A stretch of DNA of 64,000 bases from Pogonophryne albipinna (taxonomy: Eukaryota > Chordata > Actinopteri > Perciformes > Artedidraconidae), in NCBI GenBank assembly GCA_028583405.1, contig CM053260.1, positions 19,732,813 to 19,796,812 of the forward strand, written 5' to 3'. The notes under the pieces were generated by a model. The model was not told the origin of the DNA. It saw nothing but the letters and a program-made list of their open reading frames with translations, and ran no database searches. The position numbers and the translations under genes are program-made. Positions 6,449 to 60,178 of this stretch are shown here, one piece after another (positions within the stretch are counted from its first letter, which is position 1; every line of letters begins with the position of its first letter).

Positions 6449-6689
6449 TAGGCCATCCAAAATAATTGGTCGTGCTTTTTACAGCACCACGGCTTCCACA
6501 GATTACATTTTTGTATGTATTTATTGTCAAAGCATTTAATGTAATCATTGCTATCTGGATGTTAAGAGCATTCCATGGAATATAACAAAGTATTTCTGAA
6601 GTGAATTACCTACCCTAGCTTTAAGTCCTGTGTAACATTTCCTATTCCAGTCAATTAAAAAAATGTAAGCTCCTGAAAATACTGTTTTC

Positions 6690-6885
6690 CATCACTGGTG
6701 GCCTGACCATTGGAGCAGCAGTAGCTCTGTATGGTTTTGGGAACCATAGGGTGCGAGTCCCAGTTGGACCAGACGGTGTGGACTGGTAACGGCAGGTGTT
6801 CTTGAGCAAGGCACCACATCCAAACAGCTCACTGGCCCTGAAACACTGGCAGCCCTTTCGCTCTGCCACCTCTTCAATTATTGAA
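6690..6885 (+). repeat. tRNA-derived SINE-like repeat (duplication copy A)
   Basis: TAGCTCTGTATGG resembles an RNA polymerase III A box, and GGGTGCGAGTCCC about 35 bp downstream resembles a B box. Next comes TTCTTGAGCAAGGCACC, a core commonly seen in fish SINEs. No poly-A or clear 3' tail was found. The same repeat occurs in copy B. Confidence 0.5.
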
Positions 6886-9104
6886 TACTTCTAGGTCGTT
6901 TTTAGTGTTTATACATGAACATGCAAGTGTATTTCCAGCCTGTTAGTAAATCTATACCAGATCGAAAAAATCAGGGATTAATAAAAAATATTATCTGCAC
7001 AATTTGATTACTTTGCATCCAGCCTGTCCTGAACATGTTGGCACAGTGGTCTCCCTCAATCATTTACATCAAATACATTTCTTTGCTGCACTGAACTTAG
7101 TTTCATTGAGTATGAAGCAACCCGTGGGCTTAAATCCAGAAAAACATTGTGTTGAGTAAATATTGATGCAACCGATACAAACTGTTCAGAACTTTTAATT
7201 TGGACAACAAGGATTAAACCAATGTTAAAATGACATCAAATCCAAGGCTGGGCAGGTGAAAACCAGCCAACTAGTAAGAGTTGAGGAATGAGAGACAGAT
7301 GGGAGGGAAACGGGGCAGAAAGAAAAGTCAAGCTATCAACTCAAGTCACCCTCAATATAAGGATTCACAGATGCGGGAGACCAAAGTTACAAAAACGTTT
7401 TTCTTCTAAAATAAAAAAAGGCCTTTGCCGTGAAAATGATGTGTAGAATCTATGTACATCACTCTCAGATCATGTATGCATACAAAAAAAATCCACATCA
7501 CAGGATGCTTGTGTTCAAGTATATTCACCAACTTCATCTCCATGATTAAGCATTCTCGTCTTTCCACATTGTTTTTTTTTTTTTTTTGAAATAAAATGTC
7601 CTTCAAAATAAAAACCAAATGCAGAATACCACATTTTATGTCCTACCAATACATATATACTGTATAAATACATACATAAATATATTTTACATACAACAGC
7701 CATAAATTTGAAAAGGGGATATACAGAGCAAAGGGGAGGGTGGGTGGTAGTGTGTGTTTTTAGCTTGTGTTGTAAAATGGTTTGTCCCTCTATGATCTCG
7801 TCAGTCAGATACGCAGGTGTGGTGCTGTGTGTTGGTGTGTGTGTGTCCATGTTCGCACCACACACACACTGCAGATGTGGCCGTCTCAGTTGGCCCAGTA
7901 GGGGGAGCTGCCGTAGCTCGACTTGTTGACTTGGCTCTTCTGCTGCAGGCTGTTGGACTGGCCCCGCTGGTTGGGAACCCCCTGAACACACAGAGAAATA
8001 CAAATTAGCTTCTCAGAAACTCACGGGTAAAAGCCTGAGCGACCATAAAGTGTCTGCGGCGTGGGTTACCTGTCCATCCTGAGCAAGATGGTGGTGCAGC
8101 AGCTGTGAGTGTGGTTGCTGGTGAGGCAGGATGTGGAGGAACGGAGCCGGTGCATAGCCTCCAGGAGCTGCTCCAGGGTTCAGAGGCCCCGGGCCCCCCA
8201 GTGCTGATGGCAGACTGAAGGGAGGAGGGGTCCCCGCATGGAATCCCTGCTTATCAAAAGACTGGAGAACGAAGATGAGGCATCAATTAATCAGGTCTTA
8301 ATGATCTGTTGGTATAAACAACAACTACACAGCAAGAAACAGGACAGGAGTTGTGAGAGGCTCACCTGCGTCTTATTGTAAACACTTCCACTGATGTCTG
8401 GCACACCCGAGTTACTGGACGTAACGGAGACGCCTAGGAGAGTTACGCACCAACATTTCTATTAATTTAATTTACTAAGAGTTAAAAATAGGTTATGCAG
8501 ACGTGTGGAATGGGATACGCTGAGCTATCCAAAGCTTGAGAATAGGGGCTCTGATACTAAATAAAAATGATTTACAGTATATATTAATCACAAATCTAGA
8601 ATTAGAGAGCCTGAATAAATAAAAAACACCAAACACTAACCAAATAACCTCAAAACTAAACTGATCTAAATCCAACTACTATCCAAAAATAGTATTTCAT
8701 CAGTTTAAACATTGGTATAACATAAGTAAGATAAGCACAGAAACATAAGGGAAAATAAAAGTATATTTCTAAGTAAAGGAACTTGTTGAAACCCCCCCCC
8801 AGCCATTTAGGGTAGTCAAGCTCAGACATATATTAACAACACATGCTTTTAATTATAATTCCGGACAATTTGAAAAATTATCATTATAAAAAGACGTGTC
8901 TATTTGTCGTACCTTTGCCAGGCCCAGAAGCAGCAGATTTGGCTTGTGCCTGTGAGGAGGAGTTGTATCCTTTACTGTAGTCGACTCCTGCCGGCCCCGC
9001 TGTCAGCTCCTCGTACCCTGCACAGGAAAACAAAGTTCAGCGCTCGAGCAAAACACATCACTTCCTGTGCAAGACAAACCCCAATACTAATAACAAAAGT
9101 GTTT

Positions 9105-9482
9105 AGTATAGTATTCGTTTTATTTGTCCCCGAGGGGAAAATGGGTTGCAGCACATCACAAAGGCATTTAAAAAGATAAGACAATACGTCACTGACAACA
9201 ACATAGACACAGATTAAAACAAACAGAAAACCAGATATCGGCAGACATGACAAGGGGCCTATCGGCCCTCATTTGCGAAATAGGGGGGACAGGGCCAGAC
9301 CAGCTGGGCAAACAGTGCGACCTAGCCATCATTTATTTAGGAGTTTGATGGCTTGTGGGACGAAAGACAGCCGAGATCTGTTCTTTTTTAACAGAGGGGC
9401 ACGATATCTCCGCCCGGATGGCAACAGTTCAAAGTAAGAGGCAAGAGGGTGCCTCAGGTCACTGACAATATTGTGTGCCAAT
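9105..9482 (-). mobile_element. 5'-truncated LINE fragment, Rex/CR1-like (copy A)
   Basis: The minus strand encodes a short C-terminal peptide with LPSGRRYRAPL, then RSRLSFVPQAIKLLNK and a stop. That is the usual end of fish Rex1/CR1-group reverse transcriptase polyproteins. It is followed by a 3' end containing CCCCTCGGGGACAAATAAAA. The hAT-like element starting at 9483 interrupts its upstream side. Confidence 0.6.
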
Positions 9483-10537
9483 TAGGGCTGCAACAAACGA
9501 CTAATTTGATAATCGATTAATTAAACGATTAATCGACTATTCGGACTATTATGCCTTGGACAATTTCTTAAACGCTCTTATTTAGCCATCAACTTTTAGA
9601 TTTAGCTTGAGGTTGTTTTAGGCATGTGGAAACTAACAATGAAGACAATAAAGATGAATACTTGATTCATAAATACATATTATTAAATTAACTAAACACA
9701 TTTTGAACAAAATTAACATTGCTTTTTATTTAAATTAAATAAATAATATTTCACATCAAAAGAAACAACAATGTTTTAACAAATCGTATTAAATAATCTG
9801 ATGACAGAACTGTAAACAGAATAGCTGAAACTTTAACAAAATAAATAACTCAGTTTCCTCTAATCATTAACCCATGTTTGTATAATTGAGTTAACTCTGT
9901 GTGTTGCTGCTAGCATACATAATACCTGACGTGGAAACGTTACTCGTGGATGGGGATACAGAGCTACTAGAAAGACAGTCGAACCCGGTGCATTCCTCCG
10001 TCTGGATGTGGAGCACTTTTGCTAAATGTTTAGACAAAATGATCGTGTTACCGCCCTCACATGCTAAACTCTTATTGCACTTTTGGTAACGAGCATTGTC
10101 CACATCGAGACGGGTAAAGTTTAACCAGACCTCGGAGCGCGTTCTCTCCGACCATCTCCTCCGTGTGTGTGTGTTGCTGCATGTAGCAGCTACGTGTGTG
10201 TAAACTGCCCCGCCCCCTCCCAAGCAGACGGGGGAGAGAGATCTCTCTTCTGGATTGGAAAGATCGAAAATACATCATAGACGCATTTTTTTGTCTTTTT
10301 GCGTATTAGAAACGAGTTGGCGAAACTAAAACTGCGATATAATGCTTATGTAGCAATAATACATGACATATATTTTTTAAATGTCTCCAGTACCGATAAA
10401 AAGACCAATAACGTTGGAGCTTAACGGCGCGTAAAACACATGTGATGACGTCACCAACAAATCGACGACTGAATTAGTTGGCAACTAATTTGGTAATCGA
10501 TTTTAATCGATTAAATCGATTAGTTGTTGCACCCCTA
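9483..10537 (-). mobile_element. hAT-like element with BED-finger remnant (copy A)
   Basis: Ends TAGGGCTGCAACAAACGAC and GTTGTTGCACCCCTA. Perfect 8-bp target duplication GTGCCAAT (9475-9482 and 10538-10545) marks it as hAT. Subterminal arms are full of ATCGATTAA-type motifs. The minus strand has a frame (about 10223-9891) with a BED-like zinc finger (W, two Cys in YQKCNKSLAC, then LSKHLAKVLH). No catalytic transposase domain is present, so it is non-autonomous. Confidence 0.88.
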
Positions 10538-10955
10538 GTGCCAATTTTAAAAAACTGCCCTTGTATAAGCATTCTATATTAGCAAATGAGATTGTCAATT
10601 TACTGGACAATGTTATGGCAGCTCCTTGAATGAATGTCCTGTTGTGAACAATGGTGTTCACTGACCTGAGCTGAAGGCGTGCTGTCCGTAGCCGCTGGGC
10701 TGCTGCTGCTGCGTCTGCTGCTGGAAGGGGCTGGCCGAGGGGTTTCCCAGACCCAGGCCCATGCTGTGCTGCTTGGCAGAGGCTGGACCCCCGGGAGGAA
10801 CGAACATGTGGCCGTACTGGAAGGCAGCAGCGTTGGCCACGGCGCCCGGCATCCCCGCGTAGTAAGGCAAGCCTGTGTAGCTGTAGCCCGGGGGCAGGAA
10901 GGCCTGCTGGCTGCTGTGGTGCTGCGGCTGGCCCTGGGGCTGCTGGGCCTGGGGG

Positions 10956-10957
<2 letters not shown>

Positions 10958-11008
<51 letters not shown>
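10958..11008. repeat. (CTG)17 trinucleotide tract, polyQ on minus strand (copy A)
   Basis: Seventeen uninterrupted CTG units, read as CAG on the coding strand, encode a glutamine run in the truncated ubap2 copy. The allele in copy B has 21 units. Confidence 0.95.
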
Positions 11009-11009
<1 letters not shown>

Positions 11010-11845
11010 GCCTGGTTCTGGCCTTGGCTCTGGCCCTGGGAAGGCTGCTGGGCTGCCAGGCTTGCGGGGGGCGCCGGGGAGGTGGAGTCATTCCTGCCGA
11101 ACTTTGTGACTTCACCTGACAAATATTTGAGATGTCAGGCGAGAACAATCACGGGGATTTTAAGGATTTTAGACAAGGCCATCAAAGGGGGGCCAGTGTT
11201 TTACCTGAGTAGGGGTTGTTGGCAAGGCCCCCGTCTCTGCCAGAGAGAGTCGCTGCGGGGCCCGGGAATGTGATTCCATAGTAATCCTGCAAAGAGGGCT
11301 GAAGGACAGGAGAGGATCAGAAGGAGCCACACAACTAGATACAAAAACAGCGAGTACTACAGAGTGTGACGATGAGCCTCACCATTGGCAGTCTGGACTG
11401 GAGCATATGGAGGTCTTCGTAACCATAGATCTGCTGTGAAACACAGGTAGTTAGCTTTTTTCTTTTTAAGAAGAGAATCAAATGTTGAGTTTATGAATAA
11501 ACATTTGAAGCTTCAAACTATTCAGTACAGTCCTAATGCAGCCACAGAATACTCTTTACGAAAACAAAGGTTAATTGATATAAAAATAATAATACACTTC
11601 AGTGACTCTAAATCCTGAGGGGTACTCACTGGGTATGCTGGCAGCAGCCCCCCGGGGCCCATGATATACTGGTTGGGCAGTAGAGGGGGAACTCCCTGTG
11701 ACAAGTTAGGGGGAGCTTTACCTGTGAACACATTGACACAACAACCATCACTTTCCCAACTATCACGTGAAGAACAACAAATACAATGAATTGGGCTAAT
11801 CACAATGTGACAGAGATCACACATTCCCCTTGTGTCAGTGTGAAT

Positions 11846-11879
11846 ATGTGTGTGTGTGTGTGTGTGTGTGTCAGTGTGA

Positions 11880-11919
<40 letters not shown>
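11846..11919. repeat. (GT)n microsatellite
   Basis: Two GT runs separated by TCAGTGTGAATAT directly abut the splice donor of ubap2-like exon 19 in copy A. Copy B has only one short run (19221-19239), so the tract expanded or contracted after duplication. Confidence 0.9.
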
Positions 11920-11921
<2 letters not shown>

Positions 11922-12856
11922 CAGAGGAGGAGAGCAGGGGGTTGTTCCTCTGTGCGTTGAGGTTGGACGTGGCATTAGCTCCATTGGAGCCGAGTTGGCG
12001 GCGGCCATGGCGGCAGAATGGAGTCCGCTGGCGCTGATGATGCCGCCCACAGAGCTGCCCATGCTGCCGCCCATGTTGGGCATGTTCACCAGGTGGCTGA
12101 TGCTGCTGCTACTGATGCTGCTGTTGTGGGAGGAGTGGAGCGACGAGGGCTGCGAGTACGACCCCGTGGAAGGAGCCAGAGAGCTCACACCGCTGTTGTC
12201 AACACAGGTGTACTGAGGACGAGAAATAAGTCCATTTGAGTTGGTGATGCATAGACACAATGTTGAGTTTTCTAAACCAGCTGTTTTGTATACAGGGTTA
12301 AAGATAACACAGGAGACTTTACATTGTGTTTGATGAGACTGGTACTTACAGTTAGAGCGCTGGAGCCCATAGCTGAGGAATGACTGCTGACATGGCTGTA
12401 GAGTGACGGCATAAAGGAAACGGATGATTGGTTGCACTGATAAAACATTTGCAAAGCTGCATCTCACTAACAAAGAAACAAAATGGTTATTTATTAGCTT
12501 AAGAACTGTAATTTAACAACTGGTAATAAATGGTAAAGAAGTCAAAGTCAAGCAGAAAAAGCTGGGAAACCTTTTGACTTATGGCCAGATTTGTGTCACA
12601 TTCTAAATGCAGGAACGGTAGGCAAGTTTTTTTGCATGCAACATTTTAGTTTGTAAACCGCAACACTGTGTTTTCTAACCTGTTGTGTGAGTTGAGATGG
12701 CTGGCAGAGGGCATGTCCTGGGCCAGGCTGGAGAGCGTGGAGCTGTGTGGAGGCATGGAGGAGGGGAGGTGGGAGGAAGGTGCCGAGGGTCCGTTGGTGC
12801 AGATGTTCAGAGACGGCGACTCTGGCTTCGGAGTGGAGGATGCTGATGAAGCTGAG

Positions 12857-12890
12857 AGGAGGAGGAGGAGGAGGAGGAGGAGGAGGAGGG
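12857..12890. repeat. (GAG)n tract forming a polypyrimidine tract
   Basis: On the ubap2 strand this is a pure (TCC)n run immediately upstream of the CAG acceptor of exon 17, so it serves as the polypyrimidine tract. An equivalent tract is at 20190-20223 in copy B. Confidence 0.85.
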
Positions 12891-14026
12891 GATTTATTTA
12901 GTCATAATGCCACAACCCAAAAAAGACGTTACAATAGAAGGTATAAATTAAACAAGTGAATAGAGTAGAGAGGAACTTACTGTCTAGAGCAGCAGAGGTC
13001 CTCACACCATTCTGGTGAAAAGAACAACAGAGCTTAACAGATCAATACCATATACATGTAACACTTAAATGACATACGGGATGATCACAAACAAAATTCA
13101 TGTTATTAGTTATCATATTTTGTAAGTAACAGTCAGTCCATTAACCACAGCAGATGACAGTCAGTTTACTTTTGTTTCACTCAAAACATCCAAACTATAA
13201 CTTTAAGTGTCTATGGGCAAATGTCCGTATGCTCAAGTCATCTCAAAGTTTACAGTCCAGAGTTTCCCAATGCAGGGCGGACCCTCGACCCCCTGTTTGC
13301 TTGCAACAAGCAATATATCAGTGTCCGGCTGTTTATACAACTATACTATAGAAGAGGATCATTTCTCATCTCTGTCATCTCAACATTCCCCTGAAAAGGC
13401 TCCCAGGATGATGAGGATTCTTTTTTGGCTAATTCTACTCACCATGACTGGCCCCGTGGCCTCTTTGCTCTGGGAAAAGGCCAGTCGTGAGTGAGGGGGC
13501 ATGGTCCCATCGTAACCTCCCCCCACTGAGGAGTTGTCTTAATTCCAAACTTTTATAACATTTGAGTTGCAAATCTTTACTTTACTTTAAGTACTGCAGC
13601 CTTAGATTTGTCATTGTTTTGACTCGATCATTAAAGGTAGGTAAGAATGGAGAAACCGGGTCGAGTGCGCTAGAATTTGAATGTACGCAGCCGAAAAAAA
13701 TCTGCCCCTTCCTTCAGACTTCTCTCCAACACACACGAACGCGCACATGACCAATGAGGGCACGAGATGGAAGGCTGACGGGCAGGTAGGCCATCCAAAA
13801 TAATTGGTCGTGCTTTTTACAGCACCACGGCTTCCACAGATTACATTTTTGTATGTATTTATTGTCAAAGCATTTAATGTAATCATTGCTATCTGGATGT
13901 TAAGAGCATTCCATGGAATATAACAAAGTGTTTCTGAAGTGAATTACCTACCCTAGCTTTAAGTCCTGTGTAACATTTCCTATTCCAGTCAATTAAAAAA
14001 ATGTAAGCTCCTGAAAATACTGTTTT

Positions 14027-14222
14027 CCATCACTGGTGGCCTGACCATTGGAGCAGCAGTAGCTCTGTATGGTTTTGGGAACCATAGGGTGCGAGTCCCA
14101 GTTGGACCAGACGGTGTGGACTGGTAACGGCAGGTGTTCTTGAGCAAGGCACCACATCCAAACAGCTCACTGGCCCTGAAACACTGGCAGCCCTTTCGCT
14201 CTGCCACCTCTTCAATTATTGA
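14027..14222 (+). repeat. tRNA-derived SINE-like repeat (duplication copy B)
   Basis: Identical in layout to the copy at 6690-6885: A-box-like TAGCTCTGTATGG, B-box-like GGGTGCGAGTCCC, then CTTGAGCAAGGCACC. It was duplicated as part of the segmental duplication, not by separate insertion. Confidence 0.5.
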
Positions 14223-15222
14223 ATACTTCTAGGTCGTTTTTAGTGTTTATACATGAACATGCAAGTGTATTTCCAGCCTGTTAGTAAATCTATACCAGAT
14301 CGAAAAAATCAGGGATTAATAAAAAATATTATCTGCACAATTTGATTACTTTGCATCCAGCCTGTCCTGAACATGTTGGCACAGTGGTCTCCCTCAATCA
14401 TTTACATCAAATACATTTCTTTGCTGCACTGAACTTAGTTTCATTGAGTATGAAGCAACCCGTGGGCTTAAATCCAGAAAAACATTGTGTTGAGTAAATA
14501 TTGATGCAACCGATACAAACTGTTCAGAACTTTTAATTTGGACAACAAGGATTAAACCAATGTTAAAATGACATCAAATCCAAGGCTGGGCAGGTGAAAA
14601 CCAGCCAACTAGTAAGAGTTGAGGAATGAGAGACAGATGGGAGGGAAACGGGGCAGAAAGAAAAGTCAAGCTATCAACTCAAGTCACCCTCAATATAAGG
14701 ATTCACAGATGCGGGAGACCAAAGTTACAAAAACGTTTTTCTTCTAAAATAAAAAAAGGCCTTTGCCGTGAAAATGATGTGTAGAATCTATGTACATCAC
14801 TCTCAGATCATGTATGCATACAAAAAAAATCCACATCACATGATGCTTGTGTTCAAGTATATTCACCAACTTCATCTCCATGATTAAGCATTCTCGTCTT
14901 TCCACATTGTTTTGTTTTTTTTTTGAAATAAAATGTCCTTCAAAATAAAAACCAAATGCAGAATACCACATTTTATGTCCTACCAATACATATATACTGT
15001 ATAAATACATACATAAATATATTTTACATACAACAGCCATAAATTTGAAAAGGGGATATACAGAGCAAAGGGGAGGGTGGGTGGTAGTGTGTGTTTTTAG
15101 CTTGTGTTGTAAAATGGTTTGTCCCTCTATGATCTCGTCAGTCAGATACGCAGGTGTGGTGCTGTGTGTTGGTGTGTGTGTGTCCATGTTCGCACCACAC
15201 ACACACTGCAGATGTGGCCGTC

Positions 15223-18200
15223 TCAGTTGGCCCAGTAGGGGGAGCTGCCGTAGCTCGACTTGTTGACTTGGCTCTTCTGCTGCAGGCTGTTGGACTGGCC
15301 CCGCTGGTTGGGAACCCCCTGAACACACAGAGAAATACAAATTAGCTTCTCAGAAACTCACGGGTAAAAGCCTGAGCGACCATAAAGTGTCTGCGGCGTG
15401 GGTTACCTGTCCATCCTGAGCAAGATGGTGGTGCAGCAGCTGTGAGTGTGGTTGCTGGTGAGGCAGGATGTGGAGGAACGGAGCCGGTGCATAGCCTCCA
15501 GGAGCTGCTCCAGGGTTCAGAGGCCCCGGGCCCCCCAGTGCTGATGGCAGACTGAAGGGAGGAGGGGTCCCCGCATGGAATCCCTGCTTATCAAAAGACT
15601 GGAGAACGAAGATGAGGCATCAATTAATCAGGTCTTAATGATCTGTTGGTATAAACAACAACTACACAGCAAGAAACAGGACAGGAGTTGTGAGAGGCTC
15701 ACCTGCGTCTTATTGTAAACACTTCCACTGATGTCTGGCACACCCGAGTTACTGGACGTAACGGAGACGCCTAGGAGAGTTACGCACCAACATTTCTATT
15801 AATTTACTTTACTAAGAGTTAAAAATAGGTTATGCAGACGTGTGGAATGGGATACGCTGAGCTATCCAAAGCTTGAGAATAGGGGCTCTGATACTAAATA
15901 AAAATGATTTACAGTATATATTAATCACAAATCTAGAATTAGAGAGCCTGAATAAATAAAAAACACCAAACACTAACCAAATAACCTCAAAACTAAACTG
16001 ATCTAAATCCAACTACTATCCAAAAATAGTATTTCATCAGTTTAAACATTGGTATAACATAAGTAAGATAAGCACAGAAACATAAGGGAAAATAAAAGTA
16101 TATTTCTAAGTAAAGGAACTTGTTGAAACCCCCCCCCCCCCAGCCATTTAGGGTAGTCAAGCTCAGACATATATTAACAACACATGCTTTTAATTATAAT
16201 TCCGGACAATTTGAAAAATCTCAAATTATCATTATAAAAAGACGTGTCTATTTGTCGTACCTTTGCCAGGCCCAGAAGCAGCAGATTTGGCTTGTGCCTG
16301 TGAGGAGGAGTTGTATCCTTTACTGTAGTCGACTCCTGCCGGCCCCGCTGTCAGCTCCTCGTACCCTGCACAGGAAAACAAAGTTCAGCGCTCGAGCAAA
16401 ACACATCACTTCCTGTGCAAGACAAACCCCAATACTAATAACAAAAGTGTTTAGTATAGTATTCGTTTTATTTGTCCCCGAGGGGAAAATGGGTTGCAGC
16501 ACATCACAAAGGCATTTAAAAAGATAAGACAATACGTCACTGACAACAACATAGACACAGATTAAAACATACAGAAAACCAGATATCGGCAGACATGACA
16601 AGGGGCCTATCGGCCCTCATTTGCGAAATAGGGGGGACAGGGCCAGACCAGCTGGGCAAACAGTGCGACCTAGCCATCATTTATTTAGGAGTTTGATGGC
16701 TTGTGGGACGAAAGACAGCCGAGATCTGTTCTTTTTTAACAGAGGGGCACGATATCTCCGCCCGGATGGCAACAGTTCAAAGTAAGAGGCAAGAGGGTGC
16801 CTCAGGTCACTGACAATATTGTGTGCCAATTAGGGCTGCAACAAACGACTAATTTGATAATCGATTAATTAAACGATTAATCGACTATTCGGACTATTAT
16901 GCCTTGGACAATTTCTTAAACGCTCTTATTTAGCCATCAACTTTTAGATTTAGCTTGAGGTTGTTTTAGGCATGTGGAAACTAACAATGAAGACAATAAA
17001 GATGAATACTTGATTCATAAATACATATTATTAAATTAACTAAACACATTTTGAACAAAATTAACATTGCTTTTTATTTAAATTAAATAAATAATATTTC
17101 ACATCAAAAGAAACAACAGTGTTTTAACAAATCGTATTAAATAATCTGATGACAGAACTGTAAACAGAATAGCTGAAACTTTAACAAACTAAATAACTCA
17201 GTTTCCTCTAATCATTAACCCATGTTTGTATAATTGAGTTAACTCTGTGTGTTGCTGCTAGCATACATAACACCTGACGTGGAAACGTTACTCGTGGATG
17301 GGGCTACAGCTACTAGAAAGACAGTGGAACCCGGTGCATTCCTCCGTCTGGATGTGGAGCACTTTTGCTAAATGTTTAGACAAAATGCTCGTGTTACCGC
17401 CCTGACATGCTAAACTCTTATTGCACTTTTGGTAACGAGCATTGTCCACATCGAGACGGGTAAAGTTTAACCACACCTCGGAGCGTGTTCTCTCCGACCA
17501 TCTCCTCCGTGTGTGTGTGCGTGTGTGTGTGTTGCTGCATGTAGCAGCTACGTGTGTGTAAACTGCCCCGCCCCCTCCCAAGCAGACGGGGGAGAGAGAT
17601 CTCTCTTCTGGATTGGAAAGATCGAAAATACGTCATAGACGCATTTTTTTGTCTTTTTGCATATTAGAAACGAGTTGGCGAAACTAAAACTGCGATATAA
17701 TGCTTATGTAGCAATAATACATGACATATATTTTTTAAATGTCTCCAGTACCGATAAAAAGACCAATAACGTTGGAGCTTAACGGCGTGTAAAACACATG
17801 TGATGACGTCACCAACAAATCGACGACTGAATTAGTTGGCAACTAATTTGGTAATCGATTTTAATCGATTAAATCGATTAGTTGTTGCACCCCTAGTGCC
17901 AATTTTAAAACTGCCCTTGTATAAGCATTCTATATTAGCAAATGAGATTGTCAATTTACTGGACAATGTTATGGCAGCTCCTTGAATGAATGTCCTGTTG
18001 TGAACAATGGTGTTCACTGACCTGAGCTGAAGGCGTGCTGTCCGTAGCCGCTGGGCTGCTGCTGCTGCTGCGTCTGCTGCTGGAAGGGACTGGCCGAGGG
18101 GTTTCCCAGACCCAGGCCCATGCTGTGCTGCTTGGCAGAGGCTGGACCCCCGGGAGGAACGAACATGTGGCCGTACTGGAAGGCAGCAGCGTTGGCCACG

Positions 18201-18314
18201 GCGCCCGGCATCCCCGCGTAGTAAGGCAAGCCTGTGTAGCTGTAGCCCGGGGGCAGGAAGGCCTGCTGGCTGCTGTGGTGCTGCGGCTGGCCCTGGGGCT
18301 GCTGGGCCTGGGGG

Positions 18315-18380
<66 letters not shown>

Positions 18381-21300
18381 GCCTGGTTCTGGCCTTGGCT
18401 CTGGCCCTGGGAAGGCTGCTGGGCTGCCAGGCTTGCGGGGGGCGCCGGGGAGGTGGAGTCATTCCTGCCGAACTTTGTGACTTCACCTGACAAATATTTG
18501 AGATGTCAGGCGAGAACAATCACGGGGATTTTAAGGATTTTGGACAAGGCCATCAAAGGGGGGCCAGTGTTTTACCTGAGTAGGGGTTGTTGGCAAGGCC
18601 CCCGTCTCTGCCAGAGAGAGTCGCTGCGGGGCCCGGGAATGTGATTCCATAGTAATCCTGCAAAGAGGGCTGAAGGACAGGAGAGGATCAGAAGGAGCCA
18701 CACAACTAGATACAAAAACAGCGAGTACTACAGAGTGTGACGATGAGCCTCACCATTGGCAGTCTGGACTGGAGCATATGGAGGTCTTCGTAACCATAGA
18801 TCTGCTGTGAAACACAGGTAGTTAGCTTTTTTCTTTTTAAGAAGAGAATCAAATGTTGAGTTTATGAATAAACATTTGAAGCTTCAAACTATTCAGTACA
18901 GTCCTAATGCAGCCACAGAATACTCTTTACGAAAACAAAGGTTCATTGATATAAAAATAATAATAATACACTTCAGTGACTCTAAATCCTGAGGGGTACT
19001 CACTGGGTATGCTGGCAGCAGCCCCCCGGGGCCCATGATATACTGGTTGGGCAGTAGAGGGGGAACTCCCTGTGACAAGTTAGGGGGAGCTTTACCTGTG
19101 AACACATTGACACAACAACCATCACTTTCCCAACTATCACGTGAAGAACAACAAATACAATGAATTGGGCTAATCACAATGTGACAGAGATCACACATTC
19201 CCCTTGTGTCAGTGTGAATATGTGTGTGTGTGTGTGTGTACCAGAGGAGGAGAGCAGGGGGTTGTTCCTCTGTGCGTTGAGGTTGGACGTGGCATTAGCT
19301 CCATTGGAGCCGAGTCCGAGTGCCGAGTTGGCGGCGGCCATGGCGGCAGAGTGGAGTCCGCTGGCGCTGATGATGCCGCCCACAGAGCTGCCCATGCTGC
19401 CGCCCATGTTGGGCATGTTCACCAGGTGGCTGATGCTGCTGCTACTGATGCTGCTGTTGTGGGAGGAGTGGAGCGACGAGGGCTGCGAGTACGACCCCGT
19501 GGAAGGAGCCAGAGAGCTCACACCGCTGTTGTCAACACAGGTGTACTGAGGACGAGAAATAAGTCCATTTGAGTTGGTGATGCATAGACACAATGTTGAG
19601 TTTTCTAAACCAGCTGTTTTGTATACAGGGTTAAAGATAACACAGGAGACTTTACATTGTGTTTGATGAGACTGGTACTTACAGTTAGAGCGCTGGAGCC
19701 CATAGCTGAGGAATGACTGCTGACATGGCTGTAGAGTGACGGCATAAAGGAAACGGATGATTGGTTGCACTGATAAAACATTTGCAAAGCTGCATCTCAC
19801 TAACAAAGAAACAAAATGGTTATTTATTAGCTTAAGAACTGTAATTTAACAACTGGTAATAAATGGTAAAGAAGTCAAAGTCAAGCAGAAAAAGCTGGGA
19901 AACCTTTTGACTTATGGCCAGATTTGTGTCACATTCTAAATGCAGGAACGGTAGGCAAGTTTTTTTGCATGCAACATTTTAGTTTGTAAACCGCAACACT
20001 GTGTTTTCTAACCTGTTGTGTGAGTTGAGATGGCTGGCAGAGGGCATGTCCTGGGCCAGGCTGGAGAGCGTGGAGCTGTGTGGAGGCATGGAGGAGGGGA
20101 GGTGGGAGGAAGGTGCCGAGGGTCCGTTGGTGCAGATGTTCAGAGACGGCGACTCTGGCTTCGGAGTGGAGGATGCTGATGAAGCTGAGAGGAGGAGGAG
20201 GAGGAGGAGGAGGAGGAGGAGGGGATTTATTTAGTCATAATGCCACAACCCAAAAAAGACGTTACAATAGAAGGTATAAATTAAACAAGTGAATAGAGTA
20301 GAGAGGAACTTACTGTCTAGAGCAGCAGAGGTCCTCACACCATTCTGGTGAAAAGAACAACAGAGCTTAACAGATCAATACCATATACATGTAACACTTA
20401 AATGACATACGGGATGATCACAAACAAAATTCATGTTATTAGTTATCATATTTTGTAAGTAACAGTCAGTCCATTAACCACAGCAGATGACAGTCAGTTT
20501 ACTTTTGTTTCACTCAAAACATCCAAACTATAACTTTAAGTGTCTATGGGCAAATGTCCGTATGCTCAAGTCATCTCAAAGTTTACAGTCCAGAGTTTCC
20601 CAATGCAGGGCGGACCCTCGACCCCCTGTTTGCTTGCAACAAGCAATATATCAGTGTCCGGCTGTTTATACAACTATACTATAGAAGAGGATCATTTCTC
20701 ATCTCTGTCATCTCAACATTCCCCTGAAAAGGCTCCCAGGATGATGAGGATTCTTTTTTGGCTAATTCTACTCACCATGACTGGCCCCGTGGCCTCTTTG
20801 CTTTGGGAAAAGGCCAGTCGTGAGTGAGGGGGCATGGTCCCATCGTAACCTCCCCCCACTGAGGAGTAGTGGGAGGAGCTGGGTATGGAGGAGGAGGCGG
20901 AGGAGACTGTCGAAGAGGAGGGAATGCCGCTCCCTAATGAGGAGGGAGTGAGGTTGGGCAGCTGCACTGAGGAGTGGTACACCGGCTCTGCTGAGGAGAG
21001 GGGCAGAGGCAGGGCGACGGAGAGGGGGCTGCCCAGCGACTCACTGCGGGACAGCAGTGAGAGGAGAACAACTCGTCAGATAAAACGTTCGACTTTATTC
21101 ACAAACCATATAGTTTCTGTAATATCATTCACTTGAGAGGAAACTAATCAATCAGCAGTAAGGATGTAACTAGAACCGGTGCCAAGGTACATCTTAACTT
21201 TACTAAGATGTGTTCAAATGTAATCAATGCAATCTTTGACCTTATAACAAAAAGTTAGTAATCAACTTTGTTTAGTTTTGGTTTTTTACCGCAATTGTTA

Positions 21301-53840: not shown

Positions 53841-54273
53841 ACAACAGACAAATTAGCAGCTCGAGTTCTCCTATTTATCTTGACACGGAAATTGATTGTG
53901 AGTACATTGAGGACTACTTTAAACGTGGATTTACAACAGATGACATTTTGTACTAAGCAAACGCACCCTTGAAAGGAACTGTGTGTTCAAGGACTTCCCA
54001 TGTGATGAAGATGTGTTCCATATCTTTGTGGATCTAATGTCAGATTATAATCTGAAATTAACAAATGATGTGTTTGAAACCGTTAACCTGTATATCGCGC
54101 TCGGACAACTGACGGAAAATGAACTAGATCATTAACTTTCCTGGGCCAAATTGAAATATATATACTGATTGCAATTGTCAGAATTATAATATACTTTAAC
54201 CTGTGATGAATGAAAATATAATTGTAGCTGTTTGAGACACGTCAAAGATGTCCCAAATATTCTCAGTACATAT

Positions 54274-54555
54274 TGTGACAACCCTGTGGTTGTCCACCAG
54301 TTGGTGCTGCTGTAACCTGTGTTTCTTGTAATCAGCAGTGATGGGACCTACCTGTGGCACTTGATTGCAGTAGATAAGAGGGCTGCAGAACAGGCTCTCG
54401 CTCTCTCTCAGCTGCCCTGCGCAGCAGGACACCGCTCCTCTGTTCTGTTTTATTGTTGGTTGTAACCACTGTGTTGGATAAAATAAATGATTGTTTTGGG
54501 CAACTCCGGTGTGGAACTGTTGTCCTTATGTTGCAAGCAGAGCCAGCTTGTAACA
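54274..54555 (+). repeat. 5' LTR
   Basis: 282 bp, starting TGTGACAACCCTGTGG and ending CAGCTTGTAACA. It contains AATAAA near 54482. The TATA-like site reads TAGATAAGAG here, against GATATAAGAG in the 3' LTR, suggesting decay of the 5' promoter. Confidence 0.92.
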
Positions 54556-54557
54556 TA

Positions 54558-54573
54558 TGGGGGCTCGTCCGAT
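54558..54573 (+). other. primer-binding site, tRNA-Pro type
   Basis: TGGGGGCTCGTCCGAT begins two bases after the 5' LTR. Its first 14 bases match the tRNA-Pro primer site known from gammaretroviruses. The match is from memory of that site. Confidence 0.7.
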
Positions 54574-55008
54574 CCAAGAACCAGGTGATAGTTGTTTACT
54601 TGATTTGTTTGCCTTGATTGTGTAGACAGTTTGTTCCTGGTGTGGGGCATTAAGGAGTAGCTTTGGAATTACCTTTCCTGATAGGCATAAGCAACATCTC
54701 CTTCAGGGGAGCTTGTTGGTTTGTTATTTTTGTTTGTTATTTTTGTGCATAAACATGATTCGACATTTTTTTGTCATGGGCACACGTCCGTGGCTGTCTT
54801 GGTGAGTAACAGCTTCGCTGGGGCTTTACCGGGTCATTGGGTAAGTGTTTAAAACACCTGTCGTGGCATGCATGAAGACGAGGGTGAGACAAGATAGCTA
54901 GTATTGGGTAGGCAGTTAGCTAGGGGAGAGGTATTCCAGAGTGAAACAAAAATATATATATACATTTTTAGGTGTCTGTGCACCAGGTTCAGGGGAGTTT
55001 GCATAATC

Positions 55009-56274
55009 ATGGCTACATTGACAGATTTTGTGAAGTGTCCCAGTGTGGAACTACTGGAAAAATGTACTAAAGACCAACTGTTAAAAATTGCAGAGGATTT
55101 TGAGGTAGACGTTCCAAAGCAGGGTCGTAAAGACACCATAGTGACTATGTTACAGGCCCAGTTGGTACTGCAAGAAGTTCTGCCAGCAGTGGCTGGCGAT
55201 GATGGTTCCGAGGAAGAGTTGGCTGAGAAGGCAGCTATAAATCCAGAGCGGCAGAGAAGTGCAGGTTTTTCTTTGTTTGACTTTAGTGAAATGACATTTG
55301 AACAGAGAAAGGAAATAATGCTGCTGCAGTACCAACAAGACAGTGAACGTGAGGAACGAGTAAGTGCTCGTGAGGACCGGGCTAGAGCTCGTGAACAGGA
55401 AACTGAGATGGAGCGTTTAAGGTTAACTACAGTGGTGCGGGAAGCTGAATTGCAACAAGAGCGTTACAAGTTGGACCTCATCCAAGAGGGTAAGCTTTCT
55501 TCTGGGGTGTCCCCAGCTACTTTTGATGTAGCTTATAACTTGAGGTTGTTACCGAAGTTCGAGGAGAAGACTGTAGATTCTTTTTTTTAACTTTTTGAGC
55601 GACTTAGCCAAAGACGACAGTGGTCTGATTCAGAGAAAACATTGCTGTTACAGTGTGTTTTAACTGGTAGGGCTCAAGAAGCATTTTCTGCATTAAGTAT
55701 GGCTGACAGTGAAGATTACTTAAGGGTAAAGACTGCAGTGCTAAAAGCTTATGAGTTGGTGCCTGAGGCCTACCGTCAGCAGTTCAGGAAGCTAAGGAAG
55801 TCAGAAGGACAGACCTATGTGGAACTTGTTCGGGAGCTGACGATGACATTTAATCGGTGGGTCACGGCTTCCGAAGTAGTAAATCTTAATGATTTGAGGG
55901 AACTGTTCCTTCTTGAACAATTAAAATATATTCTTCCAGAACGCGTTGCTACGTACCTGAATGAGAATAAGGTTACAAATGTAACAGACGCCGGGGTGTT
56001 AGCTGATGAATACACGTTAACACACAAGATTCATTCAGGGGAGAGATTTGACTGGGGGAGCAGAAATAACTGGTCTGGTGACCCCAGATGTAAAGTAGAT
56101 CTAAGTACTTGCTACTTTTGTTTGGGTAAAGGACACCAGAAAAAGGAATGCCCAGTACTTGCAAAACCCAAGGGACTCCAAAATGTTCAGTTTCCCAGGC
56201 CTGTTGCCCTTGCAGCTTCTCCCCACAAGGTTGCTAGGGATGATGCTATAGCTGCGGTTAAACCTATGGGTTAA
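55009..56274 (+). pseudogene. gag-like gene of the LTR element, one nonsense codon
   Basis: A frame opening at ATG 55009 runs to an in-frame TAA at 55588-55590 beside an eight-T run. It resumes in the same frame through 56274. The N-terminal part is charged and coiled-coil-like, with many REERVSAREDRAR-type residues. The second part has a capsid/SCAN-like helical region (LKAYELVPEAYRQQFR) and one CCHC zinc knuckle (CYFCLGKGHQKKEC). The single stop and the following protease segment in a different frame indicate a defective copy. Confidence 0.82.
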
Positions 56275-56338
56275 ACTCTATACTACCCCGCAACCAGTTG
56301 CTGCTGCGGTTTCTAACTACGGACCAGCCCTGCAAGAG

Positions 56339-56617
56339 GTGAAGCCTCGCCCCTCCCAGTTGGCAGATGAAATTGATCCAGGGTATGCCCCTTTCATACG
56401 AGAGGGTTATGTGTCTTTGCAAGGAAGTGAAAACAAATTCCTTGTTAAGATACTGAGAGACACAGGTGCTATCGATTCATACATAACTGAGGGTGTTCTT
56501 CCATTTTCCTCGGTAACTGACACTGGAAGTGGTGTATTGTTCAAGGGAATGGGGAGGCAGTTGTCTGCTCCAAAGCATCGGTTGGTGTTGTCCTGTGATT
56601 TACGGCAGGGTGAGATT
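56339..56617 (+). pseudogene. retropepsin-like protease remnant
   Basis: Contains an aspartic protease-like DTGA motif (about 56459-56470) in a short frame that runs into an inserted repeat at about 56618. Downstream element sequence resumes after the insertion near 57686. The protease is therefore interrupted. Confidence 0.7.
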
Positions 56618-57681
56618 CAAATCAAATCAAGTTTTATTTATATAGCACATTTATAAACGATTTTTGGTCGAGCCAAAGTGCTGTACATATAATAAAATTA
56701 GCCTACAGTAGAGACACTTTACAGCAAATACAACAGCACAGATTGTTCAGAATATCAGTATGAGAAAAACGACACCCTCTGTCCTTAGACCCTCACATCG
56801 TACAAGGAAAAACTTACAGAGAAAACTCACTTTAAGGGGAAAAAATGGGAGAAACCTCAGGGAGAGCAACAGAGGAGGGATCCCTCTCCCAGGACGGACA
56901 GACGTGCAATAGATGCCGTGTGTAAATCGAAGAGATAATACATTTTACAGCATATAGACCGAATGTTAGGAAATGCATGTGTCTGTAATAAGAAGATGAA
57001 TCCACGAGGATGTCAGCTACAATCCTGTGGAAGCCATCAGGGAAGCAGCATGGCGAGACCCAAGGCAGGACCGCAGAGACAGGTTCCGCCACGACCCGAA
57101 ACGTCCACGACTTAATCCAGAACTCGGGATAGAGGATCCAAGACACAGGACTACAGCAAGAGGATCAGCCTCGACTCCGGATCCCGGCGTAGATATAGAT
57201 ACAAAACAAGAAAAAAGATTTGGCTGGGTTAATCGGAACAAGAGAATACACAGACAAAGAGGGAAAAGGTCATTGGATAAAAGTTATTCTTGATAACCCT
57301 CGAGAAAGATCTCATGAACTTCCCCACTCAATCTATCAAGACCCGAGCAGTTCTATTAACAGGCCGGCGCATATCGCTCATGGAATCCCTCACCATATGA
57401 ACTCTGACCCCTCAAGTGTACAAGTGAAGAGACACCATGTGTCAACTCCTTTTTAGAATAGTATTTCTTCTCTTCTCTGAGAAACAAGGGTATGAAAAAG
57501 AATAGCCAGAAACAGAGGAAGAGAGGCAGAACGTGACTACGTAAATGCACTCTCCTATATATTAAACGAGTAAGAGGTGAAGAAACACAAAGCCAGAAAT
57601 TGAAAAGAAAAGGCACCATCATGCTTCCCCTTAGAATAGGGTGGAAATTATGAAGACTCAAATTATGAAGAGGAGACATGG
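56618..57681 (-). mobile_element. non-LTR repeat inserted in the LTR element
   Basis: The left end CAAATCAAATCAAG then TTTATTTATATAGCACATTT is the complement of an L2-type 3' tail, so it lies in antisense orientation. GATT flanks both sides (56614-56617 and 57682-57685). The interior includes AACCTCAGGGAGAGCAACAG and GGGATCCCTCTCCCAGGACG, which I recognise as recurrent in fish genomes. No intact frame is present. Confidence 0.65.
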
Positions 57682-57685
57682 GATT

Positions 57686-58015
57686 GCCATGGGAGTCCGG
57701 CCATCTTTGCCTGTTCCGGGAGTGGCAGTCATCCTCGGAAATGATTTGGCTGGCGGCAGAGTGTGGCCTGATGTGCCTCTTTCACCAGTGGTGTCCTCTA
57801 AGCCAGTGAGGGGCGAGCTTGCTGACCCTGAGAAGAAGCTGACAAAGGTAGTTCCAGTTTGTGCAGTAACACGAGCCCAGACCTATAAAGCACAAGATAA
57901 AAGTCATTTCTGAGAATGTTGTTTTGGCGATACCTGTCGTTCCATTGTCTGTCTCTCGTAGTGAATTGGCAAAGCAGCAGGAGGATCCAACTTTGCAGGA
58001 GCTTTTGTCCCAGGT
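57686..58015 (+). pseudogene. pol N-terminal remnant (between protease and integrase)
   Basis: VAVILGNDLAGGRVWPD and CAVTRAQT are typical of the stretch following protease in fish Gypsy-like polyproteins. The frame stops at 57911-57913. The continuation SRSELAKQQEDPTLQELL, usual just before integrase, is in another frame and leads directly into the zar1 segment. Confidence 0.7.
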
Positions 58016-58700
58016 TCACCCCAGTTTACCAGTCTCACTGAGGAAAGTCATCACCAAAGAGTGCGGCGTGCAGGTGAATGTCAAAGTGGATAAAACCGTG
58101 CAGTGCTCGCTGGGTCCTAAAACGCTGTTCTGCTCAGAGGGAGTGCCCCTGTCAAAGTCCCCCAAGAGCTCGGGGCTGGTTAAAGCAGAGGGGAAGGCCC
58201 CGTACTGCACTACACCGGTGAGCCACATGCGCTTCCTGCGGCCTGTGTCAATCTACTCCCCCGTGTTTGACCGCAGGATCTCCAGGAAGAAACTCAGCTA
58301 TGCGGATGAAGGAGAAGCCGACGAATCCGTGGATCACGTTGAGTCAGGGCGTGAATGTGAGAAGGGTGACAGTGGCGAAGAGGACACCGGGAAGGACTTC
58401 AAGACAACTTTCCACAGGTCTACAAAGGGGTCCAGCTTTCAGTTCCTGGAGCAGAGGTATGGTTTTTTCCACTGCAAGAAATGCAACATCCGGTGGGAGA
58501 GTGCGTATGTTTGGTGCATCTCTGGAACCAGTAAGGTGTACTACAAGCAGCTCTGCCGGAAGTGTCAGGTTGGGTTTAACCCCTCCAGGGTGGAGCCCAT
58601 CCTCTGCAAGGACTGCTCTCAGACTACCTGCAACTGTGAGAAGAAGCTACGGCACATTAACATGAAGAGGCCTCACCGCCAGGACCTGTGTTGTAGCTGA
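57924..58700 (+). CDS. zygote arrest 1 (zar1)-derived, intronless copy fused to pol remnant
   Basis: 258-codon frame. Residues 1 to about 35 are retroelement pol. From about residue 40 the text matches ZAR1: GVQVNVKVDKTVQCSLG, then an acidic linker, then the RNA-binding zinc domain (FQFLEQRYGFFHCKKCNIRW, ESAYVWC, CRKCQVGFNP, RPHRQDLC) with Cys at 184, 187, 198, 211, 214, 228, 231, 236, 238 and 256. ZAR1 is an oocyte protein that binds maternal mRNA 3' UTRs. Host zar1 has introns inside this region and this copy has none, so it came from mRNA. A TGA replaces a conserved zinc-ligand position after DLC. Readable zar1 sequence continues past it (RLSCDATYSCKYLV) to a second TGA near 58753. It could be transcribed from the LTR, but lacks the full zinc domain. 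Confidence 0.9.
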   Translation: MAIPVVPLSVSRSELAKQQEDPTLQELLSQVHPSLPVSLRKVITKECGVQVNVKVDKTVQCSLGPKTLFCSEGVPLSKSPKSSGLVKAEGKAPYCTTPVSHMRFLRPVSIYSPVFDRRISRKKLSYADEGEADESVDHVESGRECEKGDSGEEDTGKDFKTTFHRSTKGSSFQFLEQRYGFFHCKKCNIRWESAYVWCISGTSKVYYKQLCRKCQVGFNPSRVEPILCKDCSQTTCNCEKKLRHINMKRPHRQDLCCS

Positions 58701-58753
58701 AAGGGCTCGAGGTTATCCTGCGACGCCACCTACAGCTGCAAATACCTCGTCTG

Positions 58754-59075
58754 AGCTGCCCTGCATGTTCGCTCGGGTTTGGAAGCTCCCATTCCTCAGC
58801 AGACATTCAGTACATGCCACAAATGGAAGTTAACTCTCGTAACGGACTTTAAGATCTTATATTCTCCTACCAGCGAGTAGATGGAGATATTTTGGTGGTT
58901 TATTTGAAGCAATCTCAAAAAATCTTTGTTTCCCCTAATTATCCTGGAGCGTAACTTAAACATAAACAATTTTTCTAAGGAAAAATTAAATAAATGTATG
59001 TGTCATGTAGTAGCTGTAAGTATAAGCTCTGTTATTGGTTTGGATGTTTCAGTGTCTTGGGGACACTTCTTTTCT
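58754..59075 (+). other. probable captured zar1 3' UTR
   Basis: Sequence between the ancestral zar1 stop and the polypurine run has no coding frame and no resemblance to pol. It is most simply the 3' UTR of the captured transcript, or element sequence of unknown role. This is inference from position only. Confidence 0.4.
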
Positions 59076-59096
59076 GGGGGGGGGGGGGTTGGTGTG

Positions 59097-59383
59097 TGTG
59101 ACAACCCTGTGGTTGTCCACCAGTTGGTGCTGCTGTAACCTGTGTTTGTTGTAATCAGCAGTGATGGGACTCACCTGTGGCACTTGATTCCAGGATATAA
59201 GAGGGCTGCAGAACAGGCTCTCGCTCTCTCTCAGCTGCCCTGCTCGGTGCAGCAGGACACCGCTCCTCTGTTCTGTTTTATTGTTGGTTGTAACCACTGT
59301 GTTGGATAAAATAAATGATTGTTTTGGGCAACTCCGGCGTGGAACTGTTGTCCTTATGTTGCAAGCAGAGCCAGCTTGTAACA
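59097..59383 (+). repeat. 3' LTR
   Basis: 287 bp, the same sequence as the 5' LTR with a handful of differences. These include TTTGTT for TTTCTT, GACTCACC for GACCTACC, a TATAAG promoter motif and a CTCGGTG insertion. LTR divergence is a few percent by eye, so the insertion is not very recent. AATAAA lies near 59310. Confidence 0.92.
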
Positions 59384-59860
59384 ATATATTTGTATGTACA
59401 TACAAATAAAGTAATGTGTTTCCCTTAGATTGACTATGTGTAAGGACAGGATACAAATGCAAAATACACACATATATTAATTGAATTATTTATTGAATTA
59501 TTTAAACAAATAGCATATAAATTGCTGTTTTCATTTTGACTGCATTTTAATCTAACTTGCTACAGCATCAGCAGCCTTTAATCGTAATCCATCGATATGT
59601 TTATGAGTGGTTTAAATGTCAAGTTGTCTTTTGGTAAATAACAAGAACGACACCTGAATAGAATAGTGCTTAAAGGGAGGCAATCCTCATGACACGCATT
59701 TTTAAATAATTATCATCCGATAAAACGGACCAGTCTCTGCCAGTCATTTTTCTTTTTTTTTAAATCTGATGACGTTATCAGTGATTTTAAGCTGATTAAT
59801 TACCGAAATAACATCAACCCTGTGGGCGGCGCCATTTTGACGAGTCACATGAATTATTTT

Positions 59861-59876: not shown

Positions 59877-59962
59877 ACTATGCGTTTGGTGTCGAGGACA
59901 AATTGACATATGTGCTTTGTTCATGTTGTTTACTCTAGTTACTCTCACAATTCTATTGAAAT

Positions 59963-60178
59963 ATGCCTCATTGTATCGCGAAACATTGCCACAATTCGGA
60001 TAGGAACAATCCACGGAATGCTCTGTTCCATCTATTGCCAACGGGTAAGCGTAGGAAGTACGTTCGGAGGCAGTGGCTAGCGAAATGTGCTCGGACCGAA
60101 CCGAAAGATCCACAGGCGCATGTATGCAGCGAACATTTCAAGTTTCCGGACGACTACTCAGAGTATGATGAAACATAA
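59963..60178 (+). CDS. THAP-type zinc finger, probable first exon or orphan
   Basis: 71 residues, almost entirely a THAP DNA-binding domain: C4, C9, then W38, then C55 and H58 in VCSEHF give the C2CH zinc site. A THAP domain normally extends past this point to an AVPTIF-like motif, which is absent because a TAA follows at residue 72. A GTATGA at about 60165 could act as a splice donor, making this exon 1 of a gene whose other exons I cannot find. It may instead be an isolated remnant of a P-element-type transposase or a duplicated THAP gene. Confidence 0.7.
   Translation: MPHCIAKHCHNSDRNNPRNALFHLLPTGKRRKYVRRQWLAKCARTEPKDPQAHVCSEHFKFPDDYSEYDET

Follow-up and report, generated by a model that had tools for sequence, protein, structure and literature searches.

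A Gmr1-type Ty3/gypsy element carrying a captured, spliced zar1 sequence in the genome of Pogonophryne albipinna

An LTR retrotransposon of the Ty3/gypsy group and of Gmr1 type, located at 54274-59383 of the window (the whole stretch of 64,000 nucleotides analysed here, C19:19732813-19796812 of the 1.07-Gb assembly with 861 contigs), carries between its LTRs a spliced copy of the oocyte gene zar1, in sense orientation and in the place of most of pol. We consider it highly probable, at roughly nine chances in ten, that a Gmr1-type element captured spliced zar1 by two template switches, that the resulting chimera was mobilised in trans, and that zar1 has been carried along as a decaying passenger. 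The original prediction had recognised such a capture and assigned it to 57924-59075; zar1 does lie within this interval, which however reaches 85 bp into pol and 76 bp into the element tail, and the extents were corrected to 58009-58999 for zar1 and to the borders given above for the element.

Architecture of the element and its zar1 segment

The two LTRs (5' LTR, 54274-54555; 3' LTR, 59097-59383; both on the plus strand) begin with TG, end with CA and are 95.8% identical over 286 columns, with 7 substitutions over 281 compared sites and 5 gap positions (K2P 0.025), in agreement with their earlier description as intact-looking. They are bordered by the same four bases, ATAT, at 54270-54273 and 59384-59387; this 4-bp target duplication, likewise predicted, is AT-rich and hence constitutes weak evidence when taken alone. 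Among three relatives examined for this feature, 4-bp target duplications were present in L013 and L016, and none in L015. Directly 3' of the 5' LTR lies a stretch resembling a primer-binding site for tRNA-Pro (54558-54571, plus strand), which occurs with variants in L013, L015 and L016.

The gag-like region (55009-56271, plus strand) was delineated from open reading frames and Pfam matches, with a SCAN domain at about 55762-56028 (E 1.1e-13) and a weak zinc knuckle (zf-CCHC, E 0.0041, under the curated cut-off); its frame is broken at 55588-55590. Further downstream, an insertion of about 1.07 kb with approximate ends (56617-57683), of later date and not present in the relatives, splits the protease region in the window copy: in their alignment, the equivalents of window positions 56609-56617 and of 57684 onward are contiguous in L013, L015, L016 and others. 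The protease/pol remnant (57684-58017, plus strand) matches all eight fetched relatives at 89.8-95.9% over 57684-58022 and ends in the 5' junction with zar1. The captured segment (58009-58999, plus strand) corresponds to the exons of the host gene, starting at codon 47 and stopping shortly before the 3' UTR ends, and is followed by the element 3' tail (59000-59096, plus strand), which contains a G-run polypurine tract at 59076-59088. One open frame (57870-58700, plus strand) joins the pol remnant to ZAR1 and ends in a premature stop at host codon 280.

The ZAR1 motifs noted in the original prediction were recovered in this frame by independent means: it contains a 3CxxC zinc-binding domain (Pfam, E 1.6e-7), it matches the solved ZAR1 structure 9jko (E 5.4e-39), and it agrees with a ZAR1-like protein of Notothenia coriiceps at 221 of 256 aligned positions (86%), on the strength of which a chance similarity to zar1 was rejected. 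The host zar1 gene was located on contig C16 of the same assembly, with a frame of 297 codons, whose product shares 97.98% identity with the protein of N. coriiceps, and with three introns of 360, 99 and 123 nt bearing GT-AG ends. All three are exactly missing from the window copy, so that the sequence is intronless, as had been proposed. The capture begins at coding nucleotide 140 (codon 47), leaving out the first 46 codons, and ends 5 nt past the retained poly-A signal AATAAA (58989-58994, plus strand), with no poly-A. The signal was thus taken up without its downstream sequence, a possible reason for its not having terminated transcription of the element itself.

Elsewhere in the window, a THAP-domain fragment lies near the element (59960-60175, E 3.2e-10) and is perhaps what remains of a THAP-type gene or transposon. 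Two directly repeated copies of about 7.1 kb, 98% identical and separated by 247 bp, occupy 6447-13537 and 13785-20870. SNORD57 (3073-3140) and SNORA26 (1276-1396) exceed the Rfam cut-offs, and would fit snoRNAs hosted in the introns of a gene such as NOP56.

Relatives, junctions and the mode of capture

All eight relatives match the window copy as far as 58022. The element tail is present in five of them, matching from 58999 in four and from 59003 in one; of the others, L017 and L020 are rearranged or without tail, and L019 ends at the edge of the fetched stretch. Between these two points, L013 has 2,841 bp (L013 4609-7449) that are absent from the window copy, where about 0.98 kb of zar1 stand in their place, in line with the proposal that most of pol had been replaced. 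In the missing stretch, the zinc finger and core of an integrase are followed by reverse transcriptase and then RNase H; with the integrase H2C2 and rve domains in L013 4688-5173 and the reverse transcriptase in 5810-7312, integrase lies ahead of reverse transcriptase. This gene order defines the Gmr1-type Ty3/gypsy elements. The window copy is itself without integrase and reverse transcriptase, and the pol order was read from L013; together with the SCAN capsid, it supports assignment of the recipient to the Gmr1 type, and jointly with the exact loss of introns it sustains the predicted capture of a spliced mRNA by such an element. With Gmr1-like elements it thus shares the SCAN-type capsid and, as seen in L013, the position of integrase before reverse transcriptase, whereas in place of their integrase, reverse transcriptase and RNase H the window copy has the cargo. 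A link between SCAN and Gmr1-like elements is drawn in the available portion of PMC3406341.

At the 5' junction (58009-58017, plus strand), pol and zar1 exon 1 are identical over 9 nt, or at 13 of 14 positions when the next five bases are counted. Among 3.5 million position pairs between zar1 mRNA and pol, 22 shared 9-mers occur, and by arithmetic from these counts a random join would fall into a shared 9-mer less than once in 10,000. Judged from the pol frame of L013 and that of the window, both sequences are in the same phase at this point, and the join to the pol remnant is in frame, as predicted. The 3' junction has an overlap of only about 1 nt, and no poly-A. Identity over 9 nt at one end and about 1 nt of overlap at the other are best explained by two template switches, the second of them guided by homology. 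Switching guided by microsimilarity between the RNA of an LTR element and a packaged mRNA is described in the accessible part of PMC5408686.

We infer the following course of events, of which packaging, cell type and mobilisation in trans lie beyond what a sequence can show. Spliced zar1 mRNA would have been captured by the reverse transcriptase of the element inside a virus-like particle, presumably in a germ cell expressing zar1. During minus-strand synthesis, the enzyme would have passed from the element RNA to the zar1 mRNA just 5' of its cleavage site, with almost no homology, then have copied exons 4 to 1 after the zar1 3' UTR, and finally have returned from zar1 to the element RNA at the 9-nt identity in pol. 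The chimera, devoid of integrase, reverse transcriptase and RNase H, would subsequently have been mobilised by relatives having those genes.

A different route would start from an element residing beside zar1 and transcribed together with it, the chimeric RNA being spliced and then recombined. Read-through of this sort is one model for oncogene capture. It would equally yield a spliced zar1 in sense orientation and is compatible with the poorly matched 3' junction; however, the 5' junction lies within exon 1 in the 9-nt identity with pol, where copying with two switches predicts it, and the 30 kb examined around the host gene today contain no piece of the element. We therefore regard read-through as quite unlikely and retain the two template switches as the preferred mode of capture. 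A similar read-through model is part of the background given in PMC4299795, as far as its text was available.

Further copies, their age and their coding state

The assembly was searched with zar1 alone (5 of 5 candidates scored) and with the junctions (40 of 52 candidates scored, the number of junctions found being a lower bound). The former search placed zar1 at three sites, namely the host gene on C16, the window copy on C19 and a further copy on C12, so that the second copy sought on the basis of the original prediction does exist. The C12 copy has both element/zar1 junctions at the same points as the window copy, and its 3' LTR stops at the same terminus, after which the right flanking DNA differs; in a neighbourhood of 90 kb, no window match of at least 150 nt adjoins the element, apart from separate repeats. 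The shared junctions and the different right flank indicate that the chimera moved after the capture. Given this second insertion and the loss of integrase, reverse transcriptase and RNase H, the chimera was presumably non-autonomous and mobilised in trans.

The C12 copy has been damaged by a 16-kb insertion accompanied by the loss of the equivalent of window 58129-58389 (261 nt of zar1), by a 6.6-kb insertion inside the LTR, and by a 1.2-kb insertion in zar1 (L011 3640-4831) that has a 10-nt duplication and inverted ends and is an apparent DNA transposon. Its 5' LTR and gag were not found in 47 kb examined upstream; the copy is thus 5'-incomplete, and its target duplication cannot be checked. 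These features would leave room for an origin of the C12 copy by segmental duplication, in which case transposition after the capture would not be demonstrated. Such an origin is highly improbable, given that homology stops at the LTR terminus with unrelated flanks to the right, and that copies in Chaenocephalus aceratus, described below, lie on three contigs that differ in length.

The second insertion also bears on the possibility that zar1 is a separate retrocopy, made by LINE machinery and inserted into an old LTR element. While its lack of introns would be accounted for in this way, poly-A is absent, the 2,841 bp of pol present in L013 are missing exactly between the ends of zar1, which stands in their stead, and the identical two junctions recur on C12 with other flanks. 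The chance that a LINE-made retrocopy is involved thus appears negligible, and capture by the element itself remains the preferred reading. The outcome named in the original prediction as refuting it, an unshared junction together with a poly-A and a target duplication belonging to the zar1 segment, did not occur.

Over 696 columns common to the window copy, the C12 copy and the host gene, 666 are identical in all three and 12 separate both copies from the host, with 9 changes private to the window copy and 9 to the C12 copy. Both copies share a 4-nt gap and, in the 3' UTR, a segment that measures 33 nt in the window and 36 nt on C12 and is absent from host zar1; it reflects either a loss from the host gene or a gain on capture, and window positions 58861-58888 are part of it. 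At N110 and L180, the host protein differs from the window copy as well as from N. coriiceps and Cottoperca gobio, which agree with one another, and on this comparison both host residues seem to postdate the capture. Between the C12 and C19 copies, 18 of the 696 columns (2.6%) are different, about as much as between the LTRs of the window copy (0.025), so that the insertion in the window and the separation of the two copies would be of similar age. At an assumed rate of 2-4e-9 changes per site and year, the K2P distance of the LTRs translates into roughly 3-6 million years.

Related copies in other icefishes were identified at the protein level, in a collection clustered at 90% identity; the larger searches cover the best 120 of 1,057 and the best 120 of 261 matches, and more copies may exist. 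Among the matches listed, at least three records of C. aceratus (P0018, P0114, P0128) and at least one of Pseudochaenichthys georgianus (P0125), both Channichthyidae, have the diagnostic residues of the copies, and record P0066 likewise has these residues and not those of the host. E154D and Q263L are each found in 6 of 6 copies covering the site, A71V and I296L in 4 of 4, A60V in 3 of 3, and the loss of one serine near position 95 in 3 of 3, P0066 being left out here for a frame shift. In P0114, a pol remnant in another frame leads through the junction into zar1. All five records have residues that distinguish them from the C19 copy and from the C12 copy, and show gaps and changes of their own; P0018, P0114, P0125 and P0128 are probably retroelement cargo, with gaps stemming from gene models. 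The simplest reading is a single capture in an icefish ancestor followed by spread, with at least two insertions in the present genome. A 100-residue protein query across the junction returned 4 matches from 11 candidates, all of them ordinary-looking fish ZAR1 fragments without the residues of the copies. Record P0124, labelled Salmonella enterica, contains an apparent piece of fish ZAR1 and is probably a contamination.

The premature stop at codon 280 (window 58698-58700), 18 codons early, cuts off the last 18 residues, including two cysteines. It is common to the C19 and C12 copies and would accordingly have arisen before these two parted, the zar1 part being carried as a decaying passenger. 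P0066 and P0125 end just ahead of codon 280, as a stop there predicts, and the gene model of P0018 skips the region; P0128 reads past it, with other residues at 278 and 280, which argues against the stop being present in every copy.

Counts of substitutions are small throughout. Where both genomic copies cover the sequence, 9 private changes are nonsynonymous and 3 synonymous, and between the C12 copy and the host there are 12 nonsynonymous and 2 synonymous differences; these counts show no constraint. Between window copy and host, all coding positions yield 15 nonsynonymous and 8 synonymous differences against 590 and 160 sites in the captured frame; the resulting crude dN/dS near 0.5 can be explained by constraint on the host branch and does not by itself prove a free passenger. 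These last counts might also be taken to indicate that the Gag-protease-ZAR1 fusion was domesticated into a working icefish gene, as might the preserved reading frame across the join and the annotation of the records, as zygote arrest protein 1-like for P. georgianus and as hypothetical proteins for C. aceratus. Domestication is nevertheless very unlikely, considering the interrupted gag frame, the protease split by an insertion, the early stop shared by both genomic copies, the private and C12-host counts, and the individual gaps and changes of the other records. That the ZAR1-like cargo envisaged in the original prediction works was not upheld: a functional cargo finds no support in a frame that lacks its first 46 codons, has the shared stop and displays no clear constraint in these small numbers. 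The missing start, the shared stop, the interrupted gag and a protease region broken in two mark the window copy as most probably a relic, with zar1 as its passenger. Unlikely, though conceivable for the young chimera, is an advantage from zar1 by which its RNA would have been drawn into the maternal mRNA store of the oocyte and its spread in the icefish germ line aided until the copies decayed, be it through the RNA-binding part of ZAR1 in a Gag-protease fusion or through the maternal 3' UTR. Less decayed copies could exist in another icefish.

Known parallels and meaning

The event belongs to a kind already known, LTR-mediated retroposition or transduction. In acute transforming retroviruses, replication genes are replaced by a spliced host oncogene, which leaves the virus defective; here, in contrast, the recipient is a gypsy element, and there is no sign of the cargo benefiting it. 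The metazoan LTR-mediated retroposition of Tan et al. (2016), as cited in the available part of PMC5408686, likewise involves a host mRNA inside an LTR element and microsimilarity at the points of template switching, and is reported there for vertebrates including zebrafish; the present case differs from it, as known through that source, in its Gmr1-type element and zar1 cargo. In addition, the chimera described here went on to transpose after its formation, and related copies occur in other species. According to the same portion of PMC5408686, the Bs1 retroelement of maize, an LTR element as well, has also incorporated parts of host genes, but is a plant element with three cellular genes, where we find one maternal gene of an animal. 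The crocodilian endogenous retroviruses with KIT-ligand and nectin3, as presented in the accessible text of PMC4299795, have in common with our case a captured host mRNA, several insertions and presence in more than one species; they are, however, retroviruses, in which nectin3 replaced env and KIT-ligand replaced nothing, and purifying selection was reported for their captures, whereas none is clear here. In the open-access literature, where an empty result does not prove absence, titles and openings of abstracts revealed no captured gene in any Gmr1 element, nor was anything found on a zar1 retrocopy or on zygote arrest in notothenioids.

Well-documented cases in which LTR retrotransposons of animals, as opposed to retroviruses, took up a host mRNA and then moved it again seem to be few. 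With donor, recipient, both breakpoints, a second insertion and copies in other species at hand, this one lets both the order of events and the template-switch model be followed in the sequence. For annotation, it carries the warning that several icefish proteins called hypothetical or zygote arrest 1-like probably represent cargo of a retrotransposon. The choice of an oocyte gene as donor fits a capture in the female germ line, where new insertions are inherited.
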